Below, piece by piece: positions 52,865-54,995 of a stretch of DNA of 64,000 bases. Source of the DNA: Granulosicoccus sp. (lineage in GTDB: Bacteria > Pseudomonadota > Gammaproteobacteria > Granulosicoccales > Granulosicoccaceae); contig JALZUD010000043.1 of assembly GCA_023301725.1 (NCBI GenBank), forward strand, positions 1 to 64,000. Direction: 5' to 3'. The first letter of the stretch is position 1, and each line of letters begins with the position of its first letter. The notes beneath the pieces are model-generated. The model was not told the origin of the DNA. It ran no database searches and was given only the letters and a program-made list of their open reading frames with translations. The position numbers and the translations under genes were made by a program.

Positions 52865-53308
52865 TCAGGGATCTACGTTTAGCCAGAATGTCACGGGGCC
52901 ATCATTAACTAGCGCGACCTGCATATCAGCACCGAATTGTCCTGCACCAAAACTGCTCACAGCCGGCTCCGCAATGGTCACCAGATACTCGAACAGCGAT
53001 TTGGCCAGTTGCGGCGCAGCGGCTCCGGAGAATCCCGGCCGTCGCCCTTTGGCAGTATCAGCAACCAGGGTGAATTGCGGCACTAGCAGTAGTCCACCCT
53101 CGGATTGGAGCAAATCAAGGTTCATGCGCCCATCGTGATCCGGGAATATACGGTAACTCAACAATCTATCCAGAAGCTTTGACGCCGTTTGTTGAGTGTC
53201 GGCTTTCTCGATGCCGATTAAAGCCAACATGCCAACGTTAGTTCTCGCGATACAGTCATCAGAAACCGTGACAGATGCCTCATTTACGCGTTGAATCAGT
53301 GCTTTCAT
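52865..53308 (-). CDS. dtd: D-aminoacyl-tRNA deacylase
   Basis: Hydrolyses D-amino acids wrongly attached to tRNA. The 147-residue protein starts MKALIQRVNEASVTV and has the GLLLVPQFTLVADTAKGRRPGF catalytic region (PQFTL in place of the usual SQFTL) and the cross-subunit motif near NDGPVTFWL, the Gly-cisPro hook. It is followed by a 225-base gap before hisB and is divergent from the acyltransferase gene. Confidence 0.94.
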   Translation of the reverse strand: MKALIQRVNEASVTVSDDCIARTNVGMLALIGIEKADTQQTASKLLDRLLSYRIFPDHDGRMNLDLLQSEGGLLLVPQFTLVADTAKGRRPGFSGAAAPQLAKSLFEYLVTIAEPAVSSFGAGQFGADMQVALVNDGPVTFWLNVDP

Positions 53309-53892
53309 GGGTTTATTTTTGTGCTGTGTTTTTCAAAGTAAGAATTTTCCTACTCAAATTTCAGATTTTTCTGACTCGAATTGGCGGCTATTCCTATAGA
53401 AATTATCCTATCTGTCGTTGATACTAACGATGTTTTCAGGGTTGGCATAGTTATGGAGGCACCGCCAGCGTCTGCGCGACTGCACAGATGCTCTGCTCAT
53501 TGATGAGCGTAGTGTTTGATTGCAAAATCAAAAGCTGAGCCGTGAAAAGTTCATCTCTGGCATGGAGTTGGAGATTATTGGAGCGACATGAGGTCAATCC
53601 ATAAGCCTAAGGAATCTGCCTGCCCTAGCCCACGCTGTTACCCCCTAACCGTGGAGCTTTGGGCAGGCAGCTAGGTCTTAATCCTAGCGTCTCACCCAAT
53701 CTCTGGCACAGTGCTTCAACATATAGCGCTTTCTCTTTATGCGATCAGGTCGTGTCGCACGGCTCTCAAGCGCCTCGACACCAGCAACAGAAAAAGCAGC
53801 AGGCTACACTTGTATTTGAAGCCTCCTGAGAACGTACCAAAAAGCATGTTACTGCTGCCTGTCATATCGCTCAATAACCACCGGAACCCTGC
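53309..53892. other. Gene-free, hairpin-rich interval between dtd and the acyltransferase
   Basis: This 584-base stretch contains no credible gene. It should hold divergent promoters, but the most obvious content is the series of hairpins at 53495-53688. The segments 53309-53440 and 53700-53892 show nothing I can name. Confidence 0.6.
53495..53688. ncRNA. Candidate structured RNA (series of strong hairpins)
   Basis: Four hairpins occur in succession: GCTCAT-TG-ATGAGC (53495-53508), TTTGATT-GCAA-AATCAAA (53515-53532), a long compound hairpin (53616-53670) and GCTAGG-TCTTAAT-CCTAGC (53670-53688). The compound one stacks a 10-bp stem (CTGCCTGCCC with GGGCAGGCAG), a 5-bp CCACG/CGTGG stem and a 4-bp GTTA/TAAC stem closed by five C. 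It has no reading frame and matches no 6S, SRP, tmRNA, RNase P or riboswitch signature I know. The strand is undetermined. Confidence 0.45.
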
Positions 53893-54780
53893 ATGATTGC
53901 CAAAATCATTGGCATTACTTTGCGTGTGCTCGGTGCCCTGCCATTATCGCTTAATCAGCTAGTCGGTCGAAGTCTCGGTAGGCTTGCCTGGATGACAAAC
54001 AGCAGCGCTCGCCGCATTACTGAATTCAATCTGCAACACTGCTTTCCTGATATGGACCAAAAAGAGCGACAGAGTCTGGCGTTCAATAGCTTGATGCATA
54101 TCGGACAGCAGTTCACAGAGAGCGGATGGATCTGGCATCGTCCACTTGCGCAATCCCGCCCTCTCATTAAAGAAGTCATTGGTGAACAATTCCTAAACGA
54201 CGCCATAGCGTCCAAGCGAGGCGTCATCATTTGCACGCCACACATAGGCAACTGGGAGCTTTCCCCCCTGTACATGTCGGGCTTCGGCAGCCTCTCCTAT
54301 TTTTACAAAAGCCCCAGAATGTCCGAATTGGGGCCCCTATTAATAAAATGGCGTTCTCACATCGGAGGCAAACCCATACCCTTGGATACGGGCGGTATTC
54401 GTGAAGCCCTCAAAGTGTTGAAACGCGGCGATATTCTGGGAATACTGCCTGATCAGGAGCCAGACCAAGACAACGGGGTCTACGCGCCGTTTTTCAAACA
54501 ACCTGCGCTAACCATGACGTTACTCTCGCGTCTGGCGGGGCGTAGCAAGGCTCACGTTTTGTACTTGGTACTGGAAAGGTTGCCTAAATCTCAAGGCTGG
54601 CGTATGCACTTTCTACCGTCTGATCCAGGTATTTACGACAATGACCCGCAGACATCAGCAGCAGCGATCAATCAAGGCGTGGAACGCTGTATTGCCATCG
54701 CTCCAGAACAGTACGTCTGGAGCTATAAACGCTTTAGCACAAAATCTGACGGCTCCCGACGAAGATACCCACGAAAATGA
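53893..54780 (+). CDS. Lauroyl acyltransferase, LpxL/HtrB family
   Basis: Membrane-associated acyltransferase of 295 residues that adds a secondary acyl chain to lipid A or a related lipid. An N-terminal hydrophobic segment (GITLRVLGALPLSLNQLVG) precedes the catalytic HxxxxE-type motif PHIGNWEL and the LPDQEPDQDNGVYAPFF block. The ending VWSYKRF is the usual LpxL close (YxWxxKRF). Paralogues LpxL, LpxM and LpxP cannot be told apart here. Confidence 0.88.
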   Translation: MIAKIIGITLRVLGALPLSLNQLVGRSLGRLAWMTNSSARRITEFNLQHCFPDMDQKERQSLAFNSLMHIGQQFTESGWIWHRPLAQSRPLIKEVIGEQFLNDAIASKRGVIICTPHIGNWELSPLYMSGFGSLSYFYKSPRMSELGPLLIKWRSHIGGKPIPLDTGGIREALKVLKRGDILGILPDQEPDQDNGVYAPFFKQPALTMTLLSRLAGRSKAHVLYLVLERLPKSQGWRMHFLPSDPGIYDNDPQTSAAAINQGVERCIAIAPEQYVWSYKRFSTKSDGSRRRYPRK

Positions 54781-54852
54781 TGGGTCTTGCATCACCCGAG
54801 GCAAACCCGCACAATGTAGCTTGAGCGAGCCTAAAACTCGCTAAATATGATG

Positions 54853-54952
54853 ACTCAACGGGGTGCTGAAAAGCTGAGAGTCCGATTTGCTATTCGCAAG
54901 TTGGCACAACCCGCATAACCTGAACTGGGTAATACCAGCGTAGGGATTGAGT
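54853..54952 (+). promoter_or_regulatory. TPP riboswitch controlling thiBPQ
   Basis: The thi-box landmarks are all present: GGGGTGCT at 54860-54867, GCTGAGA at 54873-54879, and CTGGGTAATACCAGCGTAGG at 54925-54944. The P1 stem pairs ACTCAA (54853-54858) with TTGAGT (54947-54952). It lies 43 bases before the thiB start. No terminator follows; instead ATCATC near 54970 can pair with GATGAT overlapping the start codon, which suggests control of translation initiation. High thiamine pyrophosphate would switch off transporter synthesis. Confidence 0.95.
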
Positions 54953-54995
54953 TGCTGCTCCGACAGTCATCATCCGATTAGCACTTCCGGTAACG

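Follow-up and report, generated by a model that had tools for sequence, protein, structure and literature searches.

Between dtd and a lipid A acyltransferase gene of Granulosicoccus sp. lies a gene-free region crowded with hairpins. What kind of element is it, and does it stand alone or lead the acyltransferase mRNA? A sequence-only reading of the window (the whole stretch of 64,000 nucleotides that was analysed) had proposed a candidate new structured RNA at 53495-53688. We compared the locus with those of related genomes, mostly draft assemblies and many of them metagenomic. The comparison points to a probable answer: a diverged, Gac-controlled small RNA (sRNA) of the Csr type, with reduced capacity for CsrA and an added 3' hairpin.

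The intergenic region and its hairpins

The proposed position between the two genes was confirmed, and the surroundings are as follows.

52865-53308, - strand: dtd (NCBIfam TIGR00256)
53309-53892: intergenic region separating dtd from the LpxL-like acyltransferase gene
53893-54780, + strand: LpxL-like acyltransferase gene
54849-54963: TPP riboswitch (Rfam), downstream of the acyltransferase gene and preceding a thiamine-transporter-like gene

The TPP riboswitch is kept in nearly all relatives and is ordinary. The dtd-lpx intergenic region of the relatives mostly measures 800-1,000 nt, and in most of them a rhodanese-like gene of ~400 nt on the - strand sits between the RNA and the acyltransferase gene. 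This gene occurs in L020-L029, L031, L036, L040 and L041. Neither the window (53690-53892) nor L004 has it at this locus; L004 (= G024, a Granulosicoccus MAG) is the genome closest to the window.

All of the hairpins described earlier were found on the + strand. They make up the 3' portion of an RNA gene (~53337-53675), so that the interval first proposed contains them but is too narrow: the conserved unit runs from a palindrome at 53337 to ~53675.

53430-53601, + strand: sRNA body, with the orthologous part at 53435-53579
53494-53509, + strand: SL4, 6 bp, stem GCTCA/TGAGC, loop UUGA without GGA
53515-53532, + strand: SL5, 7 bp, TTTGATT/AATCAAA, loop GCAA, z -4.7
53553-53575, + strand: SL7, 9 bp, loop AUGGA, where the relatives have their terminator hairpin
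53579-53601, + strand: SL8, weak, loop AUGAG in the window, AUGGA in L004 and GGA in L020
53616-53670, + strand: compound C5 hairpin, stems of 10, 3, 5 and 4 bp, loop CCCCC, a clade-specific 3' addition

SL6 is broken in the window. The compound hairpin had been described with stems of 10, 5 and 4 bp capped by five C; it is present, with a further 3-bp stem in the series. For a sequence of its composition it folds with exceptional stability, at -34.5 kcal/mol and a z of -6.4 relative to dinucleotide shuffles. For 53470-53700, the fold z was -4.0 (+ strand) and -2.6 (- strand). A coarse scan with mononucleotide shuffles placed 53495-53688 about 7th in fold stability among 330 stretches of that length in the window. 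This rank, no better than the top few percent, is not decisive by itself, and conservation among the relatives therefore had to decide. A stability of this rank would suit chance hairpins or a REP-like mobile repeat, but the element is conserved at a single locus with no further copies in the genome or family, and we consider such an origin extremely unlikely. A mobile attC/REP-like hairpin was also sought by DNA and model searches, which gave no second copy.

An Rfam scan had been proposed as a check. At the gathering threshold the whole window yielded tRNA and TPP only, the intergenic region none, and at E <= 10 the matches in the intergenic region were at chance level.

A decoy-like RNA in related genomes and its promoter

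Most other Granulosicoccus genomes carry at the dtd-lpx locus an RNA of ~150 nt with 6-9 GGA motifs, several of them in hairpin loops, and a terminator. It was found in 14 genomes, at more than 100 bits or as tandem copies. With its promoter, the element covers ~250 nt of the + strand and includes the palindrome, half-sites in 22-nt steps and a -10 box GATAAT. Its loops are of the kind GGCC-AGGAT-GGCC, and the intrinsic terminator is a G+C-rich hairpin, itself displaying AGGAU, followed by a U run (GGCCGGGTGTTTT). In the four relatives tested (L020, L021, L028 and L034), GGA occurs 7-8 times per ~155 nt, above shuffled sequences (P 0.015-0.041), and [AC]A?GGA occurs 7-10 times (P <= 0.013); these motifs lie mostly in hairpin loops. 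ANGGA displayed in a hairpin loop is a binding site for CsrA (PMC7652899). Judged from its sequence, the relatives' RNA is a predicted CsrB/RsmY/RsmZ-type CsrA decoy missing from Rfam: on the relatives' loci only TPP was found above threshold, and no Csr/Rsm family model detects the RNA. The earlier proposal of a new structured RNA therefore holds as to structure and the lack of an Rfam match, but the RNA is not of a wholly unknown kind. Two to three tandem copies, some of them degenerate, occupy the dtd locus in L033 (440-1351) and L034 (2584-3003); Rsm sRNAs, too, can occur in tandem (PMC7911923).

The relatives also bear on the suggestion that the hairpins are a cis-regulatory 5' leader of the acyltransferase mRNA. 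The acyltransferase start codon lies on the same strand, ~210-220 nt downstream of the RNA gene, and the window copy is without an obvious terminator. However, the convergent rhodanese gene intervenes in most relatives, their RNA terminates at a U-tailed hairpin of its own, and conservation is lacking between 53681 and the start codon (56%). A leader is therefore very unlikely.

The promoter region of the window copy contains the following elements.

53337-53354, + strand: predicted upstream activating sequence, a palindrome of the GacA/UvrY type (AGTAAGAATTTTCCTACT) kept by L004 and most relatives
53347-53404, + strand: three TTCCTA-like half sites spaced 22 nt apart, or two turns of the helix, the series reaching close to the -35 region and kept in relatives
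53420-53425, + strand: -10 box GATACT, placed by alignment (GATAAT, AATAAT or CATAAT in relatives)

The palindrome of the relatives reads GTAGGAAAATTCCTAC. In the window, GTAAGAATTTTCCTAC at 53338-53353 is the sole exact match to GTARGAANNTTCYTAC in its own 4.33-Mb genome, and no one-mismatch matches to GTARGAANNTTCYTAC were found there. The published GacA consensus is TGTAAG-N6-CTTACA, located 75 bases upstream of rsmY (PMC4950607). Transcription is expected to start near 53430, which would put the palindrome ~85 nt before the start; this spacing was counted for Gac control because it resembles the -75 of rsmY (PMC4950607). The TTCCTA-like repeats may offer the regulator further half-sites along a single side of the helix.

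The same genome has four other GTARGN6CYTAC sites, none of them accompanied by a GGA-rich RNA; one (L051) is within an ORF and the others look coding. Palindrome sites with two mismatches in this genome revealed no second CsrB-like RNA. A search across the class located the same palindrome at a different locus in another gammaproteobacterial family (L104 and L105), where a GGA-rich RNA and terminator follow it; this ties the palindrome type independently to Csr-type RNAs. These Csr-like RNAs (L104 1370-1600, L105 1351-1600) have 9-10 GGA downstream of the palindrome, and the adjoining ORF presumably encodes a TtcA-like protein. In G023 (L030, positions 38-300 of the intergenic region), the palindrome is retained but stands before a different, GGA-poor RNA body, which makes this a second example of remodelling downstream of the promoter.

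The genome of the window encodes both CsrA and a GacA/UvrY-type regulator. Three csrA genes score above the Pfam cut-off, and a GacA-like regulator gene lies directly before uvrC and pgsA (gacA-uvrC-pgsA cluster). The best NCBIfam match of its product is UvrY/SirA/GacA at 192 bits, below the curated cut-off of 280. A first GacA candidate (L056) was dropped as a FixJ-like regulator beside unrelated genes.

Orthology, constraint and divergence of the window copy

A covariance model (R1) was built from 12 relatives, with the window, L004 and L020 left out. Its best match in 53200-54000 was 53435-53579, in register and at full model length, with 12.1 bits (E 4e-4), a weak score that is not significant genome-wide. 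Two other matches in the same genome (L060 and L061), at 13 bits with E ~1, were judged to be chance. The orthology of the window copy is strengthened by the shared locus, the shared promoter and an intermediate genome, L020 (G025), in which an R1 copy at 106 bits and the C5-loop hairpin occur together.

Stems not conserved between relatives would have refuted the sequence-only reading, but SL4, SL5 and SL7 persist through paired changes. The SL4 stem covaries, with GCTCA/TGAGC in the window and ACTCA/TGAGT or ATTCA/TGAAT in others. The SL5 core TTGAT/ATCAA is paired in 15-16 of the 16 aligned sequences, and SL7 has the same 9-5-9 geometry as in L021 with several two-sided pair changes. These paired changes, the orthologues at the same locus and the conserved promoter argue for an independent RNA, one of the two forms first proposed.

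The C5 hairpin is common to the window, L004 and L020, folds in all three (z -6.4, -6.4 and -5.3) and has an invariant loop. A second model (R2) found it at the dtd-lpx locus only, in G000, G024 and G025 only. Two of its pairs show two-sided changes among three sequences, and 19 of 500 shuffles reach its covariation score; the covariation is thus suggestive only. DNA matches in G047 and G013 (L016 and L017) were weak and judged to be chance.

Identity to L004 is 77% over 344 nt, almost gapless. It reaches 80% in the promoter, 82% in SL4, 88% in SL7 and 85% in the C5 hairpin, with a peak of 93% at 53639-53668. SL1-SL3 share only 58%. The spacer from ~53680 to the acyltransferase start codon shows 56% with gaps, and the four-fold degenerate sites of the two flanking genes 50% and 63%. 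Because their identity exceeds that of the four-fold sites and the spacer, the promoter, SL4, SL7 and the 3' hairpin look constrained, and the 5' hairpins do not. This level of conservation, together with the palindrome and hairpins retained in both the window and L004, speaks against a decaying remnant, in which the decoy function would have been lost in the clade while the promoter and some stems survived by inertia. The lost GGA motifs and U-tail, the weak R1 score and the disappearance of the adjoining rhodanese gene from the locus agree with such decay, which we nevertheless regard as improbable.

Three ANGGA sites remain in the window copy.

53453-53457, + strand: ANGGA site 1 (ATGGA), position retained in nearly all of 16 aligned RNAs
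53562-53566, + strand: ANGGA site 2, in the SL7 loop
53609-53613, + strand: ANGGA site 3 (AAGGA), in a linker, common to L004

Each of the three is matched in L004, which has a fourth in SL8. One lies in a clear loop (SL7) and two lie outside strong stems. Most of the loop GGAs have been lost in the window and its sister genome L004, and in the window RNA GGA is not significantly enriched (6 in 262 nt, P 0.32; ANGGA 3, P 0.09). An abundance of GGA above chance, mostly in loops, was not found in this copy, and we therefore filed it as a diverged variant rather than a full member of the Csr/Rsm group. Downstream of SL7 the window reads UAUUGG; the U-run that the relatives have there is absent, and no clear terminator takes its place. 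The C5 hairpin is followed by CUAGGUCUU. In the literature, RsmY reduced by mutation to one GGA no longer bound RsmA (PMC2375449).

Predicted function and known systems

In the reading that we favour, transcription from ~53430 would be turned on when a response regulator of the GacA/UvrY type binds the palindrome at 53338-53353. The RNA would descend from a CsrB/RsmY/RsmZ-type decoy that sequesters CsrA through loop GGAs at the same locus across Granulosicoccus. Remodelling in this clade would have removed most loop GGAs, leaving three ANGGA, and added at the 3' end a hairpin of 55 nt whose CCCCC loop is exposed. The RNA would still bind CsrA, at a lower capacity of one or two dimers, and the added hairpin may shield the RNA end or contribute a function.

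It is also conceivable, if unlikely, that the RNA has been repurposed, being still switched by Gac but no longer a CsrA decoy, with the exposed UUACCCCCUA loop pairing, as an antisense seed, with G-rich ribosome-binding sites. C-rich loops act as antisense seeds in several base-pairing sRNAs. In line with this, the SL4 and SL8 loops are without GGA, the C5 loop is invariant in three genomes on a stem kept through changes, and the 53639-53668 segment is the most conserved. A precedent is RgsA, which is controlled by GacA (indirectly), has one GGA and does not sequester RsmA (PMC2375449). Against repurposing, three ANGGA are kept at positions matching L004, which also keeps its fourth in SL8. 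Since three such sites could serve one or two dimers, we ranked the reduced decoy first, the repurposed base-pairing RNA second and the remnant third, and persisting CsrA binding at lowered capacity is the most likely outcome.

A further reading, tentative and rather unlikely, is that this Gac-controlled RNA has been caught in mid-switch, a decoy that lost its protein-binding loops, gained a C-loop hairpin and is becoming a base-pairing or dual regulator with living intermediates. G025 would then combine the decoy with the new hairpin, and G000 and G024 would represent a late stage; this ordering is equally tentative.

Small-RNA papers on the genus Granulosicoccus were not found in the literature searched. 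The genus now gains a candidate for the main output RNA of its Gac/Csr switch, and the covariance model finds this RNA across the genus where Rfam finds nothing. The locus also offers a three-step evolutionary series for studying how a protein-decoy RNA loses or changes function.

Among known systems, CsrB/CsrC of Enterobacteria and Vibrio share the decoy logic of multiple GGA loops and activation of the UvrY type. CsrB is longer than the Granulosicoccus RNA, which is ~150-250 nt with 6-9 GGA in relatives and, unlike CsrB/CsrC, is without an Rfam match. RgsA of Pseudomonas, likened here by description and not by sequence, is a GacA-influenced sRNA with few GGA, but is RpoS-dependent and without the palindrome (PMC2375449). 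RsmX/RsmY/RsmZ of Pseudomonas (Rfam RsmY and PrrB_RsmZ) differ in that the RNA described here matches no Rfam Csr/Rsm family in sequence and that the window copy has three ANGGA and the extra CCCCC hairpin. They resemble it as intergenic sRNAs with a single promoter, a palindromic GacA sequence tens of bases upstream and a series of short hairpins, and the Granulosicoccus relatives share with them many GGA loops, the terminator hairpin and, in some genomes, tandem duplicates.
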